Notes under the pieces: generated by a model
What the model saw: the letters and a program-made list of their open reading frames with translations, nothing else
The model's database searches: none
What the model was told of the DNA's origin: nothing
In this document: one piece after another, positions 2,269-22,299 of the stretch
Position numbering within the stretch: the stretch's first letter is position 1
Layout of the letters: each line of letters begins with the position of its first letter
Source of the DNA: a virus
DNA: 24,321 nt
IMG/VR virus record: IMGVR_UViG_3300019880_000009
Coordinates: 1 to 24,321 of that record
Reading direction: 5' to 3' (one strand)
Position numbers and translations under genes: made by a program

Positions 2269-4657
2269 TGACGTGAAGCCTCGGGAAAATGGCCGCAATG
2301 GTCATCGGGAGCGGCGTGTCGGCCAGCACCTCAACTCTCTTTTCGAGCTCCCAGTCCCCGGGGAACACCACGTCGATGATTCCGGTGAGGATCGGCGGGG
2401 CGAGATTCATCGGATCATCGGGCACGCGGAAGTCAATCTCATCGAGCGTGCTGGGCTCACTCAGATCCTCCTCGGGCTTGCCGATCTTGCCGCCCAAGGT
2501 ATCGATGAAGCGCACCGCGGCCCGATAGATTCTCGCGGGCTTGCCCTGGCTGGTGCCAGCAGCGTTCGCGGCAGCTTCCAGATCGGCGGTGACCATGCGC
2601 GCCGGGCAAGCAAGTCCGACCTGCACCACGCTCGCAGCCCCATCGAGTGTGATCGCGCCGCCCGAGACGGTGCGATTCGGGTGCGTGGCGCCATCGGCGA
2701 GAATCTGCACGACTTGCCCTTCGAGGTGCGAGAGCCCGCTGATCACGGTGGCCGGCGCCCCATCGTAGGTCACGCCCGCGTCCACGTAGAAGGCATCGAC
2801 CTGATCATCGCCCGCCGAACCGTCATTGTCCGCGCCTTCCCAGGGCCGGGCCATGTATTCGACGTAGCGCTTGCTCGCTCCGTTGATCGTGCGCCGAACG
2901 ATCAGCCAGAGTTCATCGCCTTGACCGTCGGGCGCTGGGATGCAGGAGACCGATTCCACGATTCCGCTGCCTCCGATCGGCTCGCGGTGCCAGCCCGACA
3001 CGTCCTGATCAGCATCATAGGTAAACCCGCGCAGTGCCCCGCTCGTCAGCACGCACCAGATGATCGAATAGGGCTCGGCCTGGTAGGCCATCGCGATGAT
3101 GCCCGAACGCGTGAGGCGCTCGGCAAGGACTGCCAGATCGGTGGAGGCGAAATTATCGCGCGCCAGATCGTAGGCCATCGAGAGGAGCTTTCTACCGGCG
3201 CGCTGGACGTACACCAGGTTCGAGCCGATCGCCACGGGCTGCACGGCGCGGGTCCGATGCTTGCTTTGGCGCACGGTCTTGAAGTTCGAGGGTCCGAGCG
3301 GATCGGTGGTGGTGATCTCCGTCCCGATGAACTCCCCGCCAGGCGTGCCGATGATCAATCTCACGTCCCCGCTCATCCACAGGATGTCGTTCACGTCCTC
3401 GGCCTGCAGTTGCCACCAGATCGCATTGTCGAACCCAGTGAGCCCGAAGAAATCGCCGGCCATGTTCTCGAAGTCGTTTGGGACAGAGCCCCAAATGCGC
3501 TGCCTTCCACCCCACCACAGTCGATCTCCGAAGAAGGTCACGGTCGCTGGGTATTCGATCGTTGCCGACCAAGCCCCGAGTTGCCAACGGCTCGTGAGAT
3601 AGGTGACGGTGACCACGTGAAACGGGAATTGCACCAAGCCGTTGATCGGATCGTTGACCACGCTCGCGGTGACAGAGGTCGAGGAGCTGAAGGCCGTGAT
3701 CCGAGCGATGCCATAACCGGAGTCCTGGAATTGCCAGTTCACGCCCGTCAAGCCATCGTAAGCCGTGCCGTGCTCATGCACCGGGGGAGCGGTGCCCGAA
3801 GTCGCGTTGTTCGTGGCCTTGTAGGTGACGCCGTTGAACTTGGCCAGGTCATTGGCGACATAAGCCTTGTTGGTCTCCCAGGGCTTGACGACGATGTTCT
3901 CGACCTCAAGCCGAACCAATCGACCGACATCGGTTGCGGCAAAGAGCGCGGCTGAAGCGGTGAGCGTGACTGAGCCGGTCTGAGCCGAGGCGTAGATCGT
4001 GATCGGGCCGCTGTTGAGTTCGAGGAACGGCCCTTGGTTGGGCTGATAGGTGGAAAATTGCCAGTTCGTGTTCCCGAAGCGCGTGAGCTTCCGGGGGGCG
4101 TAGGTGCGCTTCTGATTGGCGATATAGAGCACATCGCCCGATTGCACGATGTTGAGGGCAAACGTCCCATCGGTATTGCTCAGGTCCGCCACCGCGTAGG
4201 GGGAAGGCACCTCGTAGATCACACCGGTCAGCGGATACCAATAAGTCACGTTCGGCGGGGCGTTGCCGGTGGTGGCCAAAATACAGTAGTAGTTCACGCC
4301 AGCCTGCACGACCAGATCACCGAGCACGTAGGCTGTAGCGCCCGAATAGGCGGCAACTCCTGAGACGATGACCTGGCCGTGATTGGTGTAGAAGCGCACG
4401 TACAGATCGCCGAACTCAACCTGCCATGCTTGGGTCGCCGAATACTCGAAGCGCACGAGCCAGGTGCGATTCGCGTTCGCCTTCACCTCCGTCACGTAAT
4501 GCGTCCCGCCACGCCGGCGGATGGGCCCTTGAATGAGGGGCAGGAAGTTCTCGAGCAGCTTGCAGGCGTTGGCGTATTTGGCCAGATCCGACCGACCCGA
4601 CATGCTCGGGGAGAATTCCCCGGCATTGAGATGCGTGATAGCTGGGGAGGCTTTCAT
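2258..4657 (-). CDS. Tail tubular protein B-like (tail nozzle)
   Basis: 799 residues from ATG 4657, which forms an ATGA overlap with the upstream tail tubular A gene; the start could be read further upstream, but only into that gene. The N-terminus (about residues 5-55, THLNAGEFSPSMSGRSDLAKYANACKLLENF followed by LIQGPIRRRGGTHYV) is the hallmark of podophage tail-nozzle proteins: an 'N-AGE-SP...R-DL-KY...C..LEN' stretch, then a G-P-RRR-GT-YV motif. T7 gp12 is 794 residues, nearly the same length. The protein forms the distal tail tube through which DNA leaves. The remainder is beta-rich with many aromatic residues, as expected. The gene pair A then B, in this order and coupled, matches T7 gp11-gp12. 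Confidence 0.88.
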   Translation of the reverse strand: MKASPAITHLNAGEFSPSMSGRSDLAKYANACKLLENFLPLIQGPIRRRGGTHYVTEVKANANRTWLVRFEYSATQAWQVEFGDLYVRFYTNHGQVIVSGVAAYSGATAYVLGDLVVQAGVNYYCILATTGNAPPNVTYWYPLTGVIYEVPSPYAVADLSNTDGTFALNIVQSGDVLYIANQKRTYAPRKLTRFGNTNWQFSTYQPNQGPFLELNSGPITIYASAQTGSVTLTASAALFAATDVGRLVRLEVENIVVKPWETNKAYVANDLAKFNGVTYKATNNATSGTAPPVHEHGTAYDGLTGVNWQFQDSGYGIARITAFSSSTSVTASVVNDPINGLVQFPFHVVTVTYLTSRWQLGAWSATIEYPATVTFFGDRLWWGGRQRIWGSVPNDFENMAGDFFGLTGFDNAIWWQLQAEDVNDILWMSGDVRLIIGTPGGEFIGTEITTTDPLGPSNFKTVRQSKHRTRAVQPVAIGSNLVYVQRAGRKLLSMAYDLARDNFASTDLAVLAERLTRSGIIAMAYQAEPYSIIWCVLTSGALRGFTYDADQDVSGWHREPIGGSGIVESVSCIPAPDGQGDELWLIVRRTINGASKRYVEYMARPWEGADNDGSAGDDQVDAFYVDAGVTYDGAPATVISGLSHLEGQVVQILADGATHPNRTVSGGAITLDGAASVVQVGLACPARMVTADLEAAANAAGTSQGKPARIYRAAVRFIDTLGGKIGKPEEDLSEPSTLDEIDFRVPDDPMNLAPPILTGIIDVVFPGDWELEKRVEVLADTPLPMTIAAIFPRLHVNDR

Positions 4658-5259
4658 TGGGCGCGCGCGGTGACCCACTCGGAATCGGCGCTGGATTCCG
4701 CAGCCACTTCAAGCGCGTTGGCGCGCGTCGCCTCGCGGATTGATGTCCGGTAGTCCTGCGCTAGATCAGCCCGCTTGGTGGTCGATTCCGTGATGCGCTC
4801 CACGGACTCAAGGGCGAGGCGAGCGGCGAAGGATTCCACGAAACACGAATCGAAGAGCGAAGCGTCCGTGATGTCGGCGATGTAGCGGATCGGCAGGGGC
4901 GCGCCGATGTTGGTGAGGATCTTGCCGCCCTCCACCGAGTAAAGCGCGGTCGAACTCGCCCTAAAATCGGTGAGGTCGGCCATGTTGGTGAGCGCCCCGC
5001 CTTCGATGAGGCGCAGGAAATCGTTGGGCAGCTGGTATTGAAAGCTGTAATCCGAATCGGGCGCGGCGGCGAGTGCAGCAAGGCTCGCGCGCTTGATGGA
5101 AAAGCGCCAGCGATGGCGCCGGAGCTCGGCTCGACGCACTGGCTCGAAGGCGACGTTCATCACCCGAGCTTTTTCCTTGTTTTCGCTCAAGGACGTGATC
5201 GTCCCAGCTCCGAGCTTGTGAAGGGCGCGGTTGCAGATCGCTACGTCAGATGTGCTCAT
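4654..5259 (-). CDS. Tail tubular protein A-like (head-tail adaptor)
   Basis: 201 residues, close to T7 gp11 (196). The N-terminus, STSDVAICNRALHKLGAGTITSL followed by RRAELRRHRWRFSIKRASLA (about residues 40-60) and QYQLPNDFLRLIEGG (about 74-88), is the standard signature of the gp11 family: 'ICN.AL..LG...I.SL', an arginine-rich 'R...LR.H.W.FA..R' helix and a 'Y.LP.D.LR' strand. It joins the portal to the tail nozzle. The ATG at 5259 has AGGG 8 nt upstream. Its stop overlaps the nozzle gene start by 4 bp, implying coupled translation of two subunits of one structure. Confidence 0.9.
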   Translation of the reverse strand: MSTSDVAICNRALHKLGAGTITSLSENKEKARVMNVAFEPVRRAELRRHRWRFSIKRASLAALAAAPDSDYSFQYQLPNDFLRLIEGGALTNMADLTDFRASSTALYSVEGGKILTNIGAPLPIRYIADITDASLFDSCFVESFAARLALESVERITESTTKRADLAQDYRTSIREATRANALEVAAESSADSEWVTARAQ

Positions 5260-5283
5260 GGGCGCGCCCTTTGCAGCTTGGCG

Positions 5284-6381
5284 TTAGAACAATGGGAAAA
5301 GTTCCGTCCTGAAGAAATCGACACCCACCCAGTCCGTCGCCGTGGCGAGCTGCACCTGGCCGGCGATGTCCTGGGCGAGCGCCGTGTCCTTCGCAAGATG
5401 TTGAGTAGCGCCCGCAGCGACGCCCGTGCCCGTGAGGCCATTGGCGGCGGTGGTCTGCACGTTCGATGCTCCGCTGTTGTAAATCTCGCGCACCGTGCTG
5501 GTGCTCTGGTTCGCGGTGGCCGAGGTGCTCAAGGTCTGAGTGCCACCAAACTTGGTCGTGAAGGTCTTGGCGCCAGCGCTGTTATTGTTCTGGTACAGCG
5601 CGGTGATCTTCACCGAGCCGCGTGGGCCCATGGCGTTTGCAGGCACGGGCGAGGTGAACATCGAAAGCAATGCGGCCGTGGTCTGCGTGAAAGCACCCGG
5701 GCCCGTGCATACGAAAGGCACGAGAGTCGGAGGGACACTCGGGGAGCCCGAGGTGTAGGTGTTGTTGTAGAACTGGATGAGCGTCGTGCTCGACATCTGG
5801 CCCAGATACTGACCAGCCAGAGAGCCTGCAAAGAGCGCTCCGGCGGGCAGGTACAGGTAGCAATTGGCGAATGCATTATCGAAGGGGACAGAGAAGCCCG
5901 AGGTGTTCGCGGTGGCAGGTGGAGAGCCACTCAGCCAGATCGTGTTGTTGGCGAAGGGGCCAAGGCCAGAGAGTGTTCCAGTGAGTGTGACGGTGGCGAC
6001 CGTGGTGCTGCTCTGCGCGGTGATGACCGCGTACTTGTAGGTCGTGTCCAGGATCGTGAGCACGCGGCCGACATCGGCGGCGGTGCCCAGCAGTGTCGCG
6101 GCGCTCATCGTCATAGTCACGCCAGCACCGCTGGTAGCACTGAAGCTCGCCGTGGCCGCGCCGCTCGGCGCCTGGCCGATGACCATCACGCCGTTGTTGG
6201 CCATGAAGCCCGAAGGCGGCAAATACAGTGGGATCGCGCCCTGATCGATCGTTCGAGGAAGGATGCCGGTGGTGCTTCCATCCGGCTTCACGAGCCCTAC
6301 GGCGTTGTCATCGGCCCAGGCGATCGGGTAAGTGCGCTGCCCGGATGGATTGTTGACGGTGTCTCTGACGACTCCAACCAT
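5284..6381 (-). CDS. Putative virion surface/structural protein, Ser/Thr/Ala-rich
   Basis: 365 residues; the ATG at 6381 is preceded by GGAG at 7 nt. I do not recognise a named family. The first 60 residues (MVGVVRDTVNNPSGQRTYPIAW, then GILPRTIDQGAIPLYLPPSGFMANNGVMVIG) look like a capping or attachment domain. The rest is low in charge and very rich in S, T, A, G and N, beta-rich, with a jelly-roll-like composition (SSTTLIQFYNNTYTSGSP, KITALYQNNNSAGAKTFTTKFGGTQTLSTSA). The last residues are FFRTELFPLF. Such composition and the neighbourhood, between capsid-associated genes and tail tubular A, suit a head fibre, decoration or receptor-contacting protein. The function is inferred from composition only. 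The stop is TAA. A 66-bp gap separates it from the acidic protein gene upstream. Confidence 0.55.
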   Translation of the reverse strand: MVGVVRDTVNNPSGQRTYPIAWADDNAVGLVKPDGSTTGILPRTIDQGAIPLYLPPSGFMANNGVMVIGQAPSGAATASFSATSGAGVTMTMSAATLLGTAADVGRVLTILDTTYKYAVITAQSSTTVATVTLTGTLSGLGPFANNTIWLSGSPPATANTSGFSVPFDNAFANCYLYLPAGALFAGSLAGQYLGQMSSTTLIQFYNNTYTSGSPSVPPTLVPFVCTGPGAFTQTTAALLSMFTSPVPANAMGPRGSVKITALYQNNNSAGAKTFTTKFGGTQTLSTSATANQSTSTVREIYNSGASNVQTTAANGLTGTGVAAGATQHLAKDTALAQDIAGQVQLATATDWVGVDFFRTELFPLF

Positions 6382-14702: not shown

Positions 14703-16061
14703 TCAAGTGAGCGCATATTTCTGTCGCGGCTTGCCCGCGATCCCGCGCTGCTCCTCGGTGACTCGAAGCCCCTGAGCGGCGTAGCGAAAGGCATCGGCCG
14801 CGTGGCTCGTCCAATCGTGGAGCGGTTTGAGCGAGAAGGTGCGGAGCTGATCATCCCATTCCTTCTGGTACTGGCGAAGCGCATCGAGCCCGCGCTCGCA
14901 CTTCACTGCATCGAAGTGACAGCGGGCGAGCAGCACGCGCACCGCGTTGATCCCATCATCCACGGACGCGCGCGGCAGGATCCGGTGCGGCTTGATCCCG
15001 AGGGACTTCAGCACATCGCGCCGACTTGAGGCGTTGTTGCCCCACTCTCGATCGTTCGCATCGTGCGGCAGGATATGCACATCGTAAAGATACCCGCGCT
15101 CCTTGAGCACCCGAGCGTAGTGATCGGCGCCCACGCCGGAGGCCTCGTAGAAATCGATCACATGTACGCCGAACTTGGTCTGCTGCAGGAACCAGATCGC
15201 GGTCGAATCCCCGACGCCAATATCCCAGGCACTCGTCACCGGGTAGCGCGGATCGTGCGGCACCTCACAGATCCGCCCCTCCGCCTCGGCGCGCGCGACG
15301 ATCCGCCCGTAATAGGAGCCTGGAACTGCGGCATCGAAGCTACAGAAGTATTCCTGGTTGATGATGTTCTCGGCCTCATCGTCCCCGCGCTCGGCGGCGA
15401 GCTCGCGACGCTCCTGCGCAATGCGCTCCTCCGAGATCGCGCCTGTGTCCCGAATCGTCAAGGTCTGAGAGAACCAGTGCGGGTCGGTCTTCGCGAACTC
15501 GTTCATGCGGAAGAGATGATTGCGACCCCGAGGAGTGCTGATGAAAAGCGCCCAGCCATTGTTCTCGGCGAGGATCGGTCGAATGAAGGCCCAGGCATTC
15601 GGGTCGGCCAGCGCGTACTCGGAGAAGACGACGCCCACGGGAGGGGCACCCACCAGGGCGTTGTAGTTATCGGACCCCACCACCTGCCAGGTCGAATTGT
15701 TCCCAAAGCGGATCATCATGTCCTGCTCACGCGTGGTGGAGCGGATTACGGGCGGGAAGGCGCCCTCGATGCGTCGGGCGAGCGTGCCCGGATCGACCGC
15801 ATCCCAGATGGCTTTACGCGCTTGGTTGGCCTGCGGGAGCATGTGCCAATAGGCACCCACTCGAAGCATCGCCGCAGTAGCGGCCCAGTGCAGCGCGACA
15901 TCATCCTTGCCTGAGCGCCGATGCCAGACGGCGACTGCGCGTTTGCCTCCGTGCGCGAGATAGCGCCACAACGCGTGCTGGTAAGGCCGCGTGCTCCAGT
16001 CGTGCGGCAAGTCAAGACTTGTGGCGAGTTGGATCAACGATGCGAACCTCGAAAGGAGCAC
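14703..16061 (-). CDS. Terminase large subunit
   Basis: Up to 452 residues. Walker A is RRSGKD (48-53 when counted from GTG 16061) in the context AVAVWHRRSGKDDVALH. Walker B is VVFSEYA (144-150), followed by the coupling motif STPRG (175-179). The RNase H-like nuclease begins at SAWDIGVGDSTAIW (about 277-290) and ends at HDWTSHAADAFRY near residue 417. All are standard in podophage packaging ATPases, which pump DNA into the prohead and cut it. The start is uncertain: GTG 16061 overlaps the small subunit by 50 bp with no ribosome site; TTG 16037 has GAGG 9 nt upstream; TTG 16010, 1 nt after the small subunit stop, gives PHDWSTRPYQ, close to the usual family N-terminus. Confidence 0.92.
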   Translation of the reverse strand: MLLSRFASLIQLATSLDLPHDWSTRPYQHALWRYLAHGGKRAVAVWHRRSGKDDVALHWAATAAMLRVGAYWHMLPQANQARKAIWDAVDPGTLARRIEGAFPPVIRSTTREQDMMIRFGNNSTWQVVGSDNYNALVGAPPVGVVFSEYALADPNAWAFIRPILAENNGWALFISTPRGRNHLFRMNEFAKTDPHWFSQTLTIRDTGAISEERIAQERRELAAERGDDEAENIINQEYFCSFDAAVPGSYYGRIVARAEAEGRICEVPHDPRYPVTSAWDIGVGDSTAIWFLQQTKFGVHVIDFYEASGVGADHYARVLKERGYLYDVHILPHDANDREWGNNASSRRDVLKSLGIKPHRILPRASVDDGINAVRVLLARCHFDAVKCERGLDALRQYQKEWDDQLRTFSLKPLHDWTSHAADAFRYAAQGLRVTEEQRGIAGKPRQKYALT

Positions 16062-16299
16062 CGCCGGCGCCAGTCACTTCGGCTCGTGAGAGCTTCGGAA
16101 CGTGATACTCGAGCAGTTGGGAGAATACGCGCGCGGCGCCCAGAGGGTCGCTCGTCGCTCCTCGATCGAGCCAGCCCTGCACCTTCGTGATGTTGCCTTC
16201 GGCGAGCATGGCCACGGCAGCGCGCACGTCGGCCGTCGCCCTATTCACAGAGCCCACCTTTCTGCCGCCGTACCGCTTGTGTCCCTTGGGTGCTGCCAT
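16012..16299 (-). CDS. Terminase small subunit (putative)
   Basis: 95 residues. MAAPKGHKRYGGRKVGSVNRATADVR followed by a helix is the common start of small DNA-packaging proteins in podophages ('PKG.K..GGRK.GS.N..T.....'). The C-terminal half (LGAARVFSQLLEYHVPKLSRAE) is helical and the end FEVRIVDP is beta-like. It would recognise phage DNA and recruit the large subunit, whose gene overlaps its 3' end. No Shine-Dalgarno is seen; instead the 20 bp upstream are AT-rich (TAATTAAAGTAGTTTTATCT on the coding strand) in an otherwise GC-rich block, so a promoter with a very short leader may lie here. Confidence 0.7.
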   Translation of the reverse strand: MAAPKGHKRYGGRKVGSVNRATADVRAAVAMLAEGNITKVQGWLDRGATSDPLGAARVFSQLLEYHVPKLSRAEVTGAGGAPFEVRIVDPTRHKS

Positions 16300-16319
16300 A
16301 CAAGATAAAACTACTTTAA

Positions 16320-16586
16320 TTACGCGAACCTACGAGCGGCCTTGCCCGCCTGGCTGCGCTTGTGCGCGCTCTCCGCGCTCGCTGACAAGGCGGTGTCGTG
16401 CCCGAGGTGCCCGAGCGTGTTCTCGACCAGCACGGCGAGGAGTTCCTGGCCCGATGTCCCACGGAGGCGTTCGACGGCATCATTGTTCCCATCGATCGTG
16501 GAGAGCCACACCCGCAGACGCGTGAGCTCATTTGCCCAGCCCGAGGTCGCGCGCCTTCTGACCAGCTCGACTTGCTTCAAGGACAT
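16320..16586 (-). CDS. Hypothetical phage protein
   Basis: 88 residues; the ATG at 16586 is supported by GAGGAG 7 nt upstream. MSLKQVELVRRRATSGWANELTRLRVWLSTIDGN, then VERLRGTSGQELLAVLVENTLGHLG, then a basic tail SAESAHKRSQAGKAARRFA. Mostly helical; no cysteines, no membrane segment. No family recognised. It sits between RusA (68-bp gap) and the small terminase (20-bp gap), a site where phages often keep a packaging or regulatory accessory. The stop is TAA. Confidence 0.55.
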   Translation of the reverse strand: MSLKQVELVRRRATSGWANELTRLRVWLSTIDGNNDAVERLRGTSGQELLAVLVENTLGHLGHDTALSASAESAHKRSQAGKAARRFA

Positions 16587-16654
16587 GTCTTCGCTCCTCG
16601 CATCCGTTGAACGTAATACGATCCTGGACGGCGCGCTGATACTTCGCTCACGCC

Positions 16655-17065
16655 TTACGCATCGAACAGCGCCGCGCTCTCCGTCGCCTCGCCCGGGATC
16701 TCACAGATGTGCACCTCAATCTCCCCGTTGCGGACCACAAGCCCGCGGCGGATCCGCAGGTCATCGATCTCCCCGTCATCGTCGATAACCGCGGCGTGCT
16801 GCAGAGCATCGAGTATGCCCTTGAGCAGATTATCAAGGTCGCGCTTGCGTCGATCCGGCGGTCTGGCAATGAGCGAGAGGGCGAGCTTGCCCTTCAGTTC
16901 ATGGCGTACGACGCGTTGTAGCGTCACCTGATCGTTCACTGCCTTGCGATAGGCCCTGCCCTCGCCACTCAGCATCGTGCGCCCCGCCAGCGGCCCCTTG
17001 TTCGGCGTGCGCCACATGGCATTGACGCTTGGGGGGAATGGCAGCCTAAGGGTGATGACTTTCAC
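16655..17065 (-). CDS. rusA: RusA-family Holliday junction resolvase
   Basis: 136 residues. The N-terminal LRLPFPPSVNAMWRTP (6-21) is the family entry motif. RDLDNLLKGILDAL (75-88) holds the two catalytic aspartates (D76, D78) and the lysine (K82) corresponding to D70, D72 and K76 of E. coli RusA, and DDDGEIDDLRI (95-105) supplies the further acidic residue. The enzyme is a dimer that resolves four-way junctions formed in phage recombination and replication, preparing DNA for packaging. I chose GTG 17065, with GGAGAGAG about 5 nt upstream, inside the 3' end of the GIY-YIG gene (20-bp overlap). The stop is TAA. Confidence 0.9.
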   Translation of the reverse strand: MKVITLRLPFPPSVNAMWRTPNKGPLAGRTMLSGEGRAYRKAVNDQVTLQRVVRHELKGKLALSLIARPPDRRKRDLDNLLKGILDALQHAAVIDDDGEIDDLRIRRGLVVRNGEIEVHICEIPGEATESAALFDA

Positions 17066-17738
17066 GATAACTCTCTCCGGCCACGATCCGCCGAGCTGTA
17101 GCTCTTACGATCCCAAGGCGCTTAGCAGCCGTGAATACCGGCATTCCCTCCGCTACCATGCTGCGCAGTGAATGCACCTGGTCCGCTGAGTACCGACGCC
17201 AACGCGCTAGCATTTCTGAAGAATGTCGAGGCCCTGGTCTACCGCGTCCGGCGGCGCCGATCTTCGCGCGATGCGCCAAAGTTAACGGGCGTCCGATCTT
17301 TGCTGCGCGCATCTTCGCGCGGGCCTCCAGAGAGGGGGATTTACCCCTTACTGCCGCACCGATCTTTCGCTTCGTCTCCTCGCTTCGCGGCTGGCCCTTA
17401 GGAGATCCAGCTATCGGCAGTACGTTCATGCATTGACGATTCGACCCTACGCCTGCAGCAGTCAGTTCCAACTGCTCTGCCTCAATTAATTGCTCCCTGG
17501 AAGCACTCGGCATCGCTCGCAACAGCTCGATCCGAAGCCGATCCGCGCCGCTGTTCCAGATCGCTTGCAATATGGGATTGGCATGGGTCAGTTTCTCCAA
17601 GCGGTATTGATGCTGCATGGCGCGGCGGCGAACGTTGACACTGCTTCCGATGTAGAACTTGCCACTGACCCGATCTGTGATGACGTACAGGCCGGCAACC
17701 GAGGGCGGCCAAGGAAGCAGCAGGCGGGCGGATCTCAT
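17046..17738 (-). CDS. GIY-YIG homing endonuclease with RusA-like N-terminal tag
   Basis: 230 residues. GIY-YIG domain: GLYVI (16-20), FYIGSS (28-33), arginines 37-39, and a likely catalytic Glu in LIEAEQLEL (E86 or E88). A NUMOD3-type DNA-binding repeat region follows (about 111-170: PRSEETKRKIGAAVRGKSPS, then LEARAKMRAAKIGRPLTLAH), then a C-terminal helix-turn-helix (about 197-222, AAKRLGIVRATARRIVAG). It is a mobile endonuclease, not a phage housekeeping gene. Residues 5-14, RLLLPWPPSV, precede the GIY-YIG fold and match the first residues of RusA (TLRLPFPPSV at the same numbers in the next gene). The ATG at 17738 forms an ATGA overlap with the upstream gene. It ends in TAG, rare in this window. 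Confidence 0.88.
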   Translation of the reverse strand: MRSARLLLPWPPSVAGLYVITDRVSGKFYIGSSVNVRRRAMQHQYRLEKLTHANPILQAIWNSGADRLRIELLRAMPSASREQLIEAEQLELTAAGVGSNRQCMNVLPIAGSPKGQPRSEETKRKIGAAVRGKSPSLEARAKMRAAKIGRPLTLAHRAKIGAAGRGRPGPRHSSEMLARWRRYSADQVHSLRSMVAEGMPVFTAAKRLGIVRATARRIVAGESYRESHHP

Positions 17739-18259
17739 GCGAATTCATCGCGAGGGAGTAAATCTCTTAGCCTCGTTGGCCCTGAAAGCGCCTTGTGCTG
17801 CGGAGGACCGGCTATCGTCGGCACCGCTTCACGCACGTCCTCGGCATCCTGCATCGTCTCGAAGTGCTCAGCGAATCGTTTCCCCAAAAAGTGCAGCTTA
17901 TCCTCCTCACACATGGCGATTGCGATGTAACCACCAATGGCTCGAACACATCGATCGATCAGCGGTTCCCCCAATGGCCCATTTCGATAGGCGCTCGAGG
18001 CCGCATGGTCTATGGCTTTGGCGAATGCTTCACCTGCGGTAGGCCTGCCTGCTTTTCTCAGCTCGTGGAAATCCGCCGGACGCGGCATGAATTTCGAGGT
18101 CTGCATCAGGTGCGCGGCAGCGGACTCGAACTCCGACATCGACCATTTGCCCAGGGCGAGCCAATAGGCATCCAAGATCAGCGCGTCAGGCTCCTGGCCG
18201 AACATGCGCCCCATGCCACGGATCAGGTCACGGAAGCGCTTGCCGTCAGCCGCCTGCAT
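17735..18259 (-). CDS. Phage replication accessory (helicase loader/organiser-like)
   Basis: 174 residues from ATG 18259, chosen for GGAG 7 nt upstream; it overlaps the upstream initiator-like gene by 14 bp. The first 80 residues (FRDLIRGMGRMFGQEPDALILDAYWLALGKWSM, then FESAAAHLMQTSKFMPRPADFHELRKAG) have the pattern of phage helicase-loader or replisome proteins: 'L...FG......L..YW..L.......F..A...........PRPADF.EL'. The C-terminus is poorly ordered. With the gene upstream it makes an O-P-like replication pair, as in lambdoid phages. Identity inferred from pattern and position. Confidence 0.6.
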   Translation of the reverse strand: MQAADGKRFRDLIRGMGRMFGQEPDALILDAYWLALGKWSMSEFESAAAHLMQTSKFMPRPADFHELRKAGRPTAGEAFAKAIDHAASSAYRNGPLGEPLIDRCVRAIGGYIAIAMCEEDKLHFLGKRFAEHFETMQDAEDVREAVPTIAGPPQHKALSGPTRLRDLLPRDEFA

Positions 18260-19142
18260 GGCGCATCTCCGGCGGGGTCCAGTTCTCCGTCGTTGAGATA
18301 ATCCGGCGTGTCTGCGCCGACAGATCGCTCCTCGGAGGTTCGGCGTGGAATCGGCGTCCGGCATCGATGTGCTGTGCGTCACGAAGCATCAGCTCGAGGG
18401 CGTCGTAGACCGTCCCAGTCTCGTTCTGGCCCATGTGGTGCGGGGAATTCAGGTATCCACTGATCGCCTCGCAGAGTTCTGGCTCCCCGTAATTTTTCAG
18501 GGCCGAGCGGATAACCTTCCGGCGTTTATCGTCGAGCCTAGCTTGCGGATGGCGGTGAACCTCTCGCCAGTGTTGGAAGACTCGATCGATGGGGCCAGCA
18601 TCAATCGCAGGCGCAGCCTGCGCTACGGGTTTCAATGCGGGCGGTGGCTTGACAGTTCTTGGTTCTTCTTCTGGTCTTGTCTTGTCTAGTCTTGTCTTGT
18701 CTGGTAACTCAGAAGCGTTACACACGTCAGCGCGTGCGTTACTCTCTTGCGTTACATTCCTAATCCGATGGCGGGCGACCCGTTTGGCGGTCAATGCCTT
18801 TTTCTTAGCATCGGTGCCGTTATGTGTATGAAATTCCGGAAGTTTTACGCAGTTCGCGTCGAGGATCTCAATCCAATCAAGGGGCATGAGTTGAACGAAA
18901 CCCTCGATCCCGATGAGCTCGTTTATTTCGTCGGGGCCAAGGTCGAGTGTGTCATCCTCGCGGACGTGCGTATCGGCGTACATCCAGAGCTGCGCAAGGC
19001 CACCTAACAGCAGCGTTACAGCGCAGGGGCGACTGATACGCTCCTGCGTTACATTCTGCGCGGCGCATAGCGTGCGAACCATGCGCAGAAACCGCGGGTC
19101 ATCGCGGAGTGACTTTTCGAGCTTGACCCAGCCACCCATCAT
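18246..19142 (-). CDS. Replication initiator-like protein (phage O-type)
   Basis: 298 residues from ATG 19142, which overlaps the 46-residue gene by 4 bp. The N-terminal domain (about 1-130: WVKLEKSLRDDPRFLRM, LLLGGLAQLWMYADTHV, LGPDEINELIGIEGFVQLM, then KLPEFHTHNGTDAKKKALTAKR) is of the winged-helix type seen in phage replisome organisers, where 'P.F..HNG...K.R......R' ends the DNA-binding domain. A linker follows with two copies of DKTR encoded by pentanucleotide repeats. The C-terminal domain (about 200-290) carries RRKVIRSALKNYGEPELCEAISGYLNSPHH in two parts. It would bind the origin and recruit helicase through the next gene. The origin itself is not identified; lambda-type origins lie inside such genes. 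Confidence 0.7.
   Translation of the reverse strand: MMGGWVKLEKSLRDDPRFLRMVRTLCAAQNVTQERISRPCAVTLLLGGLAQLWMYADTHVREDDTLDLGPDEINELIGIEGFVQLMPLDWIEILDANCVKLPEFHTHNGTDAKKKALTAKRVARHRIRNVTQESNARADVCNASELPDKTRLDKTRPEEEPRTVKPPPALKPVAQAAPAIDAGPIDRVFQHWREVHRHPQARLDDKRRKVIRSALKNYGEPELCEAISGYLNSPHHMGQNETGTVYDALELMLRDAQHIDAGRRFHAEPPRSDLSAQTRRIISTTENWTPPEMRHAGG
18671..18705 (-). repeat. Pentanucleotide repeat tract inside the initiator gene
   Basis: Seven consecutive 5-bp units of the form CTNGT on the plus strand (CTGGT, CTTGT, CTTGT, CTAGT, CTTGT, CTTGT, CTGGT). On the coding strand this is a 15-bp period repeated twice and encodes DKTRLDKTRP. Gain or loss of one 5-bp unit would shift the reading frame in the linker. 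Confidence 0.8.
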
Positions 19143-20083: not shown

Positions 20084-20087
20084 ATGC

Positions 20088-20116
20088 TTGACCGCTCTAG
20101 CATAGAGAGTTATGCT
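20088..20116 (+). promoter_or_regulatory. Transposase promoter
   Basis: TTGACC (20088-20093), 17-bp spacer, TATGCT (20111-20116). The ATG at 20123 begins 7 nt after the -10 box, so the transcript would start at or next to the start codon, giving a leaderless message. An 8-bp inverted repeat covers the -10. Confidence 0.55.
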
Positions 20117-20118
20117 AG
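20097..20118. repeat. Inverted repeat over the transposase -10 box
   Basis: CTAGCATA (20097-20104), 6-nt loop GAGAGT, TATGCTAG (20111-20118). Perfect 8-bp arms ending 4 nt before the transposase ATG. In DNA it could be a repressor site. In read-through RNA from outside promoters it would form a hairpin against the start codon, a known way for insertion sequences to avoid activation by neighbouring transcription. Confidence 0.6.
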
Positions 20119-20122
20119 TCCC

Positions 20123-20953
20123 ATGAACAAGCTACCCATCGCAAAGCGCGCTCAGATCCTTGGCCTATTGGTCGAGGGCAACAGTCTCCGCGCCACCAGC
20201 CGCCTTGCGGATTGCAGCATCAACACGGTCACCAAGCTGCTGGTTGACGTCGGTTTCGCCTGCGCTCGGTTTCAAGATAAATCGTTACGGAACCTGTCCT
20301 GCAAGCGCATCCAGTGCGACGAAATTTGGGCCTTCGTGTACGCCAAGGCCAAGAACGCGTCGGCTGAAATGAAGGATGCCGGGGAAGCGGGTGACGTTTG
20401 GACTTGGACAGCAATTGACGCTGATTCCAAGCTCGTTGCGTCCTGGATGGTCGGAGATCGGGGCGGTGCGACGGCTAAGGTCTTTATAGCTGATCTGGCT
20501 GGACGCCTTGCCAACAGGGTGCAACTGACCACGGACGGTCACAGTGTCTACCTGAATGCGGTAGAGCGGTCCTTCGGCGCAGGCATCGATTACTCGGTGC
20601 TAGTGAAGCTCTACGGCGACGTCAAAGGCTCAAATCCGGACCGCCGGTACAGTGCCGCAGAGTGCTGCGGGACGATCAAAGGCACGGTCTGCGGCAACCC
20701 AGACGACAAACACGTCTCTACGAGTTTCGTGGAGCGCCAGAACCTCACCATGCGCATGAGCATGCGCCGGTTCACCCGGCTGACGAACGCCTTTTCAAAG
20801 AAAGTCGAAAACCACGCCCATGCGGTCGCCCTGCACTTTATGTATTACAATTTTGGGCGCATCCATAAGACCCTGCGGGTAACCCCGGCTATGGCTGCGG
20901 GCGTGTCGGACCATGTGTGGTCGATTGAGGAAATCGCCGGGTTGGCAAACTGA
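20123..20953 (+). CDS. IS1-family transposase
   Basis: 276 residues from ATG 20123 (MNKLPIAKRAQILGLLVEG); the frame is open further upstream, but this start matches the family. N-terminal helix-turn-helix (about 18-40, NSLRATSRLADCSINTVTKLL). DDE-type catalytic residues: D66 in QCDEIWAF, D138 in LTTDGH and E204 in FVERQNLTMRM. The following MRRFTRLTNAFSKKVENHAHAVALHFMYYNF (two parts) is the usual IS1-type tail. No frameshift is needed, unlike IS1 itself; it belongs to the single-ORF branch common in proteobacteria. All catalytic residues are present, so it is probably active. The stop is TGA and lies inside the right terminal repeat. Confidence 0.95.
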   Translation: MNKLPIAKRAQILGLLVEGNSLRATSRLADCSINTVTKLLVDVGFACARFQDKSLRNLSCKRIQCDEIWAFVYAKAKNASAEMKDAGEAGDVWTWTAIDADSKLVASWMVGDRGGATAKVFIADLAGRLANRVQLTTDGHSVYLNAVERSFGAGIDYSVLVKLYGDVKGSNPDRRYSAAECCGTIKGTVCGNPDDKHVSTSFVERQNLTMRMSMRRFTRLTNAFSKKVENHAHAVALHFMYYNFGRIHKTLRVTPAMAAGVSDHVWSIEEIAGLAN

Positions 20954-20977: not shown

Positions 20978-21006
20978 TTGACACACGGATAACCTTTAGT
21001 TATTGT
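20978..21006 (+). promoter_or_regulatory. Rightward early promoter
   Basis: TTGACA (20978-20983), 17-bp spacer, TATTGT (21001-21006), a near-consensus sigma-70 promoter. It would start at about 21013 and drive the whole rightward operon. Its -35 region TATTGACA mirrors the leftward TGTCAATA (19617-19624). Confidence 0.75.
20989..21003. promoter_or_regulatory. Right operator candidate (15-bp inverted repeat)
   Basis: ATAACCTTTAGTTAT, with perfect 5-bp arms, inside the rightward promoter and overlapping three bases of the -10 box. It matches the left operator in 12 of 15 positions, and the two sites hold the same position relative to their promoters. Confidence 0.65.
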
Positions 21007-21035
21007 CTGACCCATGTCACCGGGCGGAGAGAATA

Positions 21036-21533
21036 GTGGACCTTCAGTACAGTGAGCAGATCAGAGAGGCAGCAACCGCGCTCTTTTGGTCTTTCGTTTC
21101 AAAAGGCGCCCCAAACGAATGCTGGCTTTGGACTGGGCCGCGCTATTCGCGCGACGCCTACCCGAGATTCAGGTTCCACCAGACAGAGACTGGGGCCCAC
21201 CGATTTTCATACGAAATTCACAATAGCCCAATCCCTGTATTGCTCCACGTTTGCCATCACTGTGACGTTCCTCTGTGCGTGAATCCTAGCCACCTTTTTT
21301 TGGGCAGTCATAAAGACAATATGGTTGATAAGGGGCAGAAAGAAAGGCTGCGACAATCCCTCGGGTATCCGCCGTCAAGCAAATCCAGAGGAAAGCTTCA
21401 CGTAAATGCTGTGCGAGCAATCAGGTCAAATCCAAACATCAGTTTGAACTCATACGCTGAAGAATTTGGCGTAACTCAGAACACGATTTACCAAGTTCGG
21501 AAACACATCACCTACCGATGGGTGCAGCCATGA
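21036..21533 (+). CDS. HNH homing endonuclease 1
   Basis: 165 residues from GTG 21036, preferred because GGAGAG lies 4-5 nt upstream; a TTG at 21003 lies inside the promoter -10 box. N-terminal half: ECWLWTG (28-34) and GAHRFSYEIHNSPIP (53-67). HNH region: LLHVCHHCDVPLCVNP, then SHLFLGSHKDN (69-95), with H75, N83 and H86 and paired cysteines C73/C76/C81. C-terminal helix-turn-helix (about 145-165, YAEEFGVTQNTIYQVRKH). Mobile endonucleases of this type cut a specific intron-less or endonuclease-less site. It is the first gene after the rightward promoter. It ends in an ATGA overlap with the next gene. More A/T-rich than its neighbour, suggesting recent arrival. Confidence 0.88.
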   Translation: MDLQYSEQIREAATALFWSFVSKGAPNECWLWTGPRYSRDAYPRFRFHQTETGAHRFSYEIHNSPIPVLLHVCHHCDVPLCVNPSHLFLGSHKDNMVDKGQKERLRQSLGYPPSSKSRGKLHVNAVRAIRSNPNISLNSYAEEFGVTQNTIYQVRKHITYRWVQP

Positions 21534-21805
21534 CCACCGCCCTCGAATCCCTCGGGCACATCCCGCGCACGACGCCCAAGTACGGCGCCTACAGCATCTT
21601 CCTCGACATCGACGGCTTCGAGCTTGAGGTCACCTACGACCTCGACGGACGCGACCTTCCGGCCGAGCGCGAATTCCCCGCCGAGCGCGCCGACGTGCTC
21701 GTGGTGAGCGTGCAGATCGGTGAACACGAAGTCTTTGGGGACGAGGCTGACGCGTGGAACGACCGCTTGTCGCTGTGGGAAAAGATCCAGGAGACACGAG
21801 AATGA
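21530..21805 (+). CDS. Hypothetical phage protein (91 aa)
   Basis: 91 residues from ATG 21530, in 4-bp overlap with the HNH gene before it and with the HNH gene after it. It reads TTPKYGAYSIFLDIDGFELEVTYDLDGRDLPAE, then ADVLVVSVQIGEHEV, then a C-terminal helix SLWEKIQETRE. Acidic, two beta hairpins and a helix, no cysteines. I do not recognise a family. Markedly GC-rich, like the virion genes and unlike the two endonuclease genes around it, so it is probably the original resident of this stretch. Confidence 0.65.
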   Translation: MTTALESLGHIPRTTPKYGAYSIFLDIDGFELEVTYDLDGRDLPAEREFPAERADVLVVSVQIGEHEVFGDEADAWNDRLSLWEKIQETRE

Positions 21806-22299
21806 GTCCTGCAGAGCGAGCCCATATTGACGCACAGCGCTTTTGGAAGAAAGTCAGAAAAAGCAGTGGGTGCTGGGAATGGCAGGGGCATCTATCAAAC
21901 GGCTACGGAATATTTGGTCACGACACAAAGGCACATCGCGCGTCTTGGCAGTTGTCGGTCGGGGCAATCCCAGTTGGCCTCTGTGTTCTGCATCGCTGTG
22001 ATAACAGAGCTTGCGTGCGTCCAGATCATCTTTTCATCGGCACGGTTGGCGACAATAACAAAGATCGTGCTGCCAAGGGGCGCAGCAAAGGGACATTCCC
22101 AAGCGGCGATGCACACCCAGCTAAACAGAGATTGGGCGGCAAGCATTGGTGCGCAAAGCTCTCTGGCGTTGACGTGCTCAACATCCGTAACAAGAGTGAA
22201 TCTGGAGAAACGCAGACTGCTATCGCGCGGCACTTCAATGTGCATCCGGCAACCATCAGCAGAATAGTGCGCCGCGAGTGGCGCGGGGAAGTCGTATGA
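21802..22299 (+). CDS. HNH homing endonuclease 2
   Basis: 165 residues from ATG 21802 (4-bp overlap with the previous stop), the same length as HNH 1. RFWKKVRKSSGCWEWQG (13-29), GYGIFGHDTKAHRASW (34-49), then the HNH core VGLCVLHRCDNRACVRPDHLF (58-78, two cysteines C66 and C71, with H64 and H76) and DNNKD. The C-terminal part has a helix-turn-helix (about 138-160, QTAIARHFNVHPATISRIVRRE). The order of motifs is the same as in HNH 1 but with clear sequence divergence, so the two are related, not recent copies. Function: site-specific mobile DNA endonuclease. Confidence 0.88.
   Translation: MSPAERAHIDAQRFWKKVRKSSGCWEWQGHLSNGYGIFGHDTKAHRASWQLSVGAIPVGLCVLHRCDNRACVRPDHLFIGTVGDNNKDRAAKGRSKGTFPSGDAHPAKQRLGGKHWCAKLSGVDVLNIRNKSESGETQTAIARHFNVHPATISRIVRREWRGEVV

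Follow-up and report, generated by a model that had tools for sequence, protein, structure and literature searches.

Endonuclease genes that sit inside a coding gene and leave one of its ends duplicated are known from fungal mitochondria, where mobile open reading frames (mORFs) with duplicated C-termini occur in Allomyces atp6 and in Glomus atp6, atp9, cox2 and nad3 (PMC3630166). The restored piece in Glomus was ascribed to a foreign donor, its identity to the native piece being low in DNA and high in protein (PMC3630166). The I-TevI and Seg-type endonucleases of T4-like phages are described in introns or between genes, and a text search of a review on T4 mobile elements showed no mention of target-gene end duplication or start-codon capture (PMC2988022). 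Nor, by text search within the open-access literature, do a 2023 study of phage nucleases (PMC10448857) and a 2025 study of Skunavirus HNH endonucleases (PMC12724721) describe captured starts or duplicated gene ends. Here we analyze a GIY-YIG endonuclease gene in viral DNA of 24,321 nucleotides (IMGVR_UViG_3300019880_000009, positions 1 to 24,321; hereafter the window), which begins with what appears to be the 5′ end of the next gene, rusA. In Aeromonas phage Aeh1, the nrdA gene is split by MobE and its two pieces work together. The endonuclease lies inside a phage gene in both cases, but the Aeh1 gene is in two pieces, whereas rusA of the window is whole because its severed end is duplicated.

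Our reading, to which we assign a probability of roughly 0.8, is that a homing endonuclease gene was inserted in frame near the end of another gene, that the severed end became its own terminus, and that a diverged copy of this end restores the invaded gene. The anatomy itself, capture of a gene end together with a second, differently spelled end, is found in phages and at both gene ends. In the window, the genes run on the minus strand in the order replication-P/DUF6475-like gene, GIY-YIG endonuclease, rusA, small genes and terminase large subunit; rusA and the end of the endonuclease share 20 bases. A preliminary description of this DNA had the coordinates, frame and overlap of the endonuclease and rusA right, including a GTG start and a likely ribosome site for rusA within the endonuclease tail.

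That description also derived the first 14 endonuclease residues from RusA. This holds for residues 5–14, where RLLLPWPPSV of the endonuclease and TLRLPFPPSV of RusA are identical at 7/10 positions under equal numbering, but not for residues 1–4, which are unlike (MRSA and MKVI). Against an 11-column profile of RusA openings (31 distinct sequences, taken at other loci), endonuclease residues 5–14 (the tag) scored 26.6 bits; the maximum among 7,854 non-RusA stop-to-stop frames was 14.9. Codons differ at all seven residues common to the tag and rusA, as had been pointed out. This difference alone is no proof of selection, since the codon usage of this phage would by itself make 4.8/7 differ (P = 0.066), and we dropped it as evidence for selected recoding. 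The RusA protein next to the endonuclease is complete and retains the RDLDN motif. A scan of IMG/VR for the pattern WPPS followed by GIY-YIG found no such N-terminus at places unrelated to rusA: apart from three out-of-frame chance matches, the sole hit was a sister contig (IMGVR_UViG_3300019882_000013), 100% identical across 12.4 kb including the junction.

Is the tag really part of the endonuclease? Upstream of the ATG, the endonuclease frame is closed after two codons, and ahead of the GIY motif it contains no other ATG, GTG or TTG. As the ATG is the sole start before the catalytic domain, the first 14 residues (MRSARLLLPWPPSV) are necessarily translated. In the predicted structure, residues 1–10 lie outside the fold (pLDDT 57). 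Other endonucleases of the aligned family start just 2–9 residues before GIY (MKSGIY, MNVSGIY, MSDCGVY), and long captured fronts are present only in the window and at one further locus, L023. Since homologs begin so close to GIY, the tag replaces the usual endonuclease start.

Past the tag, the protein is by sequence an ordinary homing endonuclease. Pfam matches above cut-off are GIY-YIG (5.3e-05) and NUMOD3 (4.4e-07), the PHROG match is a homing endonuclease (7e-13), and the best PDB match is I-TevI (1mk0, E 0.004). In an alignment of ten sequences, the I-TevI-type catalytic residues Y18, Y29, R39, H43, H52, E88 and N105 are conserved, presumably with the roles of their counterparts in the I-TevI active site, and G16, Y18, Y29, G31, R39 and E88 are invariant. 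The protein thus has the GIY and YIG motifs and the catalytic Arg and Glu of I-TevI/Seg-like homing endonucleases, with NUMOD3 as a separate DNA-binding part and weak helix-turn-helix matches besides. The gene is also optional, being absent after the homologous upstream gene in L083, L155–L160 and L219. I-TevI and Seg-type enzymes share with it the catalytic domain and residues, the NUMOD3 linker, a DNA-binding C-terminus and a free-standing position beside a conserved gene (PMC2988022). We also considered a group I intron or an intein carrying the endonuclease. No Rfam match was found around the locus (16000–19000, E 0.5), so nothing points to a group I intron, and rusA is full-length and begins at a start codon of its own.

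The history proposed for the window is directly visible at L023, in a phage unrelated to that of the window. Here the endonuclease starts MSLDYQLAWP-HDLPRQGIYSI, and the next gene, weakly resembling a baseplate or sheath initiator, has a GTG start in a GTGA overlap and begins VSLDYQLAWP ((V)SLDYQLAWPCPHL..., in a fuller reading (V)SLDYQLAWPCPHLTVEE). In its relative L235, which lacks the endonuclease and whose target gene is 89% identical, the upstream DNA is the same, ribosome site GAGGAG included, and leads directly into MSLDYQLAWPCPHL (ATG TCT CTT GAC TAC CAA CTG GCG TGG CCT TGT CCC CAC); the more distant L236 (66%) is endonuclease-free as well. Given this arrangement in L235, the L023 endonuclease entered after codon 10 and took over the native start, and the gene was given a second 5′ end. 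Codons agree with the empty site of L235 at 4/8 positions in the captured tag, 2/8 in the restored copy and 206/308 in codons 11–370. The contrast between the restored copy and the synonymous codons of the rest gives a Fisher P of 0.021, a modest value based on 8 codons. Because the same history is seen in L023 through an endonuclease-free relative, the earlier proposal that the endonuclease entered rusA near codon 14–15, kept the old start and was followed by a second 5′ end is supported, mainly by analogy.

At 51 distinct GIY-YIG loci, the sequence preceding the GIY motif was matched to that surrounding the stop of the endonuclease, with mismatched pairs as controls (n = 408). Three loci, L023, L013 and L037, exceeded 408/408 controls. 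The window locus scored 36, a value matched by 8/408 controls and thus weaker taken alone. L013, also in an unrelated phage, is the mirror image of the 5′ captures: a prim-pol/CHC2 primase gene overlaps the endonuclease by ATGA, the primase ends in NHLSNEDAIRELSKR, and the endonuclease ends in NHLSNQEAIREMAKG, matching the native primase 3′ end of L323. The latter locus is 76% identical, has no endonuclease, and its primase ends NHLSNHEAIIIMSMKG. The bases of that end, AATCACCTGAGCAAT, are exactly those of the L013 endonuclease tail, whereas the L013 primase has AATCATTTGAGCAAT; a downstream gene beginning ATGGC(C/G)GAT is common to both loci. Agreement with the native 3′ end of L323 is 32/42 bases for the endonuclease tail and 26/42 for the restored primase end.

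At L037, the 3′ end of an HNH gene recurs after the GIY-YIG endonuclease with 14/25 residues shared, yet only 2/14 codons. This is apparently a fourth, less complete case, a nuclease gene invaded by another nuclease. Further downstream (5439 onward), the same locus encodes a very long protein that might hold an intein-like insert. As further captures, L070, L024, L056 and L003 were rejected, their scores lying within or near the controls. Among named phage GIY-YIG loci (CP1, Valrath, RaNi, PhiXhv-5, hairong, phiN3, XapPhi3 and SPbetaL5), no capture above controls was found, and a genome search for NUMOD3 returned nothing usable.

We then looked for the uninvaded state of the window locus among RusA relatives in IMG/VR and bacterial genomes and among relatives of the upstream gene. 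In L219, which has no GIY-YIG gene, the DUF6475 gene homologous to the upstream gene is followed by its stop, 6 bases and rusA. In L194, L156 and L157/L158, also without GIY-YIG, rusA lies 0.25–0.7 kb after the upstream-gene relative. The preliminary description had expected endonuclease-free phages in which the two genes overlap. Their order is borne out, but the overlap is not: an ATGA overlap joins the upstream gene to the endonuclease in the window, and one between the upstream gene and rusA was seen in no relative. L083, whose version of the upstream gene is the most similar (57%), lacks rusA there and has a different small gene starting in the same ATGA overlap; across the relatives of the upstream gene, varied genes come next. 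The closest RusA (L085, 78%) neighbors an unrelated upstream gene.

Several of these observations weigh against our interpretation. An exact empty site, with rusA starting MRSARLLLPWPPSVN after the upstream gene, was not found in this search. The restored rusA 5′ end shares 4/9 codons with L085, compared with 54/91 elsewhere in the gene, and so is not clearly more diverged. Moreover, the restored start is closer to L085 (both TLRLP) than the tag (RLLLP) is, and the P value at L023 is modest. The event may have taken place in the window's own phage line, or the genes may have arrived as a finished block.

The latter possibility deserves separate consideration. The rusA gene of another phage could have been invaded, and the finished endonuclease–rusA block moved in by mosaic recombination. 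This changes the place of the event and not its nature, and is thus a variant of our reading. The window rusA and L085 (TLRLP.PPSV) are mutually closer than the tag is to either, as expected from such a transfer, and the variety of genes following the upstream gene fits it too. On the other hand, the tag has no RusA function now and could have drifted, and the order of upstream gene and rusA also occurs endonuclease-free (L219, L194). Overall, we regard arrival as a block as possible though rather unlikely. It is less likely still that two rusA genes first stood in tandem, through duplication or acquisition, and that the larger part of the first copy then gave way to the endonuclease, the element never carrying a rescue piece. 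Phage rusA genes are often swapped, and the tag and rusA differ at 3/10 aligned residues and all common codons. However, the foreign-looking part of the L023 gene is confined to its first 10 codons, the rest showing ordinary orthologous divergence from single-copy L235. In addition, L013 and L037 repeat the pattern at the 3′ end, so that four double events would be needed. Chance or convergence, such as a general GIY-YIG leader peptide, is very improbable: the generic flank score would allow it, but it is refuted by the profile score, and there is no such leader in aligned homologs, the position numbers are equal and rusA is adjacent. An artefactual joining of two genomes, conceivable in metagenomic contigs, can be dismissed almost completely given the identical sister contig through the junction, a joint exactly at codon and ORF boundaries and the presence of L023 on two contigs.

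The invasion model suggests the following course of events. A free-standing I-TevI-like GIY-YIG gene would have been inserted in frame at rusA codon 14–15, exchanging its own start codon for that of rusA with 13 further codons. The endonuclease would then be translated from the old rusA signals, coupled to the upstream gene, so that the captured start offered ready-made expression. The rusA 5′ end beside it would be a second, diverged copy; as it brings its own GTG and ribosome site, RusA should still be made. Judging from the sequence, the enzyme may cut rusA of endonuclease-free phages around the captured sequence and insertion point. The insertion would split the recognition site, and the restored copy would be immune through its different DNA spelling. 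Repair of the break from the donor would copy the endonuclease and restored 5′ end together, a natural cut-and-rescue arrangement. Because the two would travel together, the recipient would keep a working rusA gene. For the origin of the restored piece, either a foreign donor or local re-spelling under selection would fit.

How does this compare with mORFs? In both, an endonuclease gene lies in a coding gene, a short target end is present twice, as a native and a DNA-diverged but protein-conserved copy, and the gene remains functional; such an open reading frame with a duplicated end is found in the window, L023, L013 and L037. The mORF duplication is at the 3′ end, with the severed native piece after the element, whereas in the window, in a phage, the 5′ end with its start codon is kept as the endonuclease N-terminus. 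Likewise, the duplicated piece is at the 5′ end of the target in L023 and at its 3′ end in L013 and L037; L013 differs from mORFs in that the 3′ piece is fused onto the endonuclease C-terminus. The window element thus works like a mORF, yet is not classed as one. What differs from the known duplicated C-termini is 5′ capture and occurrence in phages.

Endonucleases inside working phage genes have usually been described with an intron or intein, or else between genes. The four phage loci show another way, in which a gene end is taken and a second copy of it left. Whether they stand for a general phage class, inserted in frame at the ends of working genes, keeping the severed start or stop and co-spreading a cut-resistant recoded end as a natural cut-and-rescue gene drive without intron or intein, we consider an even bet. 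The old insertion point can be read off the captured end with codon precision, so that sequence alone allows a directly testable prediction of the natural cutting site. For free-standing homing endonucleases, this step is usually the difficult one. Annotation calls for caution, as one terminus of such an endonuclease points to the wrong protein family.

Table 1. Features of the window locus and of the three other loci with duplicated gene ends
Locus	Feature	Position	Strand	Basis or remark
Window	Captured rusA 5′ end, now endonuclease N-terminus (MRSARLLLPWPPSV; start codon + 13 codons)	17697..17738	-	Sequence, RusA profile
Window	Whole GIY-YIG endonuclease gene	17738-17046	-	ATG start
Window	GIY-YIG homing endonuclease body	17046..17696	-	Pfam, PHROG, catalytic residues, PDB
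Window	GIY-YIG catalytic domain, residues 15-90	17469..17696	-	Pfam, alignment, pLDDT above 90
Window	NUMOD3 DNA-binding motif	17328..17396	-	Pfam
Window	Probable C-terminal helix-turn-helix	17082..17159	-	Weak Pfam HTH, E 0.01-0.03, below cut-off
Window	rusA, complete, Holliday-junction resolvase	16655..17065	-	Pfam RusA 6.6e-13; PDB 1q8r 2.9e-14
Window	Second (restored) rusA 5′ end, GTG start at 17065	17024..17065	-	Sequence
Window	GGAGAG, likely rusA ribosome site within endonuclease tail	17073..17078	-	Sequence, inferred
Window	Upstream gene, replication-P/DUF6475-like	17735..18259	-	ATGA 17738-17735: its stop overlaps endonuclease start
L023	GIY-YIG endonuclease with next gene's N-terminus	3983-5874		Empty relatives L235, L236
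L013	GIY-YIG endonuclease ending in native primase 3′ end	3165-4543		Empty relative L323
L037	HNH gene with 3′ end duplicated on both sides of GIY-YIG endonuclease	3409-4880		

Some minor features may be added. TGGCC stands just before the joint at both 5′ capture sites (window 17697-17738; L023 3983-4012), which could be a shared recognition element or chance. The restored rusA of the window has TTC (Phe) at the position where most RusA genes carry TGG. Elsewhere in the window, an IS1-type transposase gene (20084-20953, plus strand; Pfam DDE_Tnp_IS1 4.5e-09) is directly followed by an HNH endonuclease-like gene (21003-21533; PHROG 2e-27), around which no flank repeat or captured gene end was found. 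A neighboring gene, likewise on the plus strand (21754-22299), is HNH-like by sequence similarity and has a CWEWQG motif.
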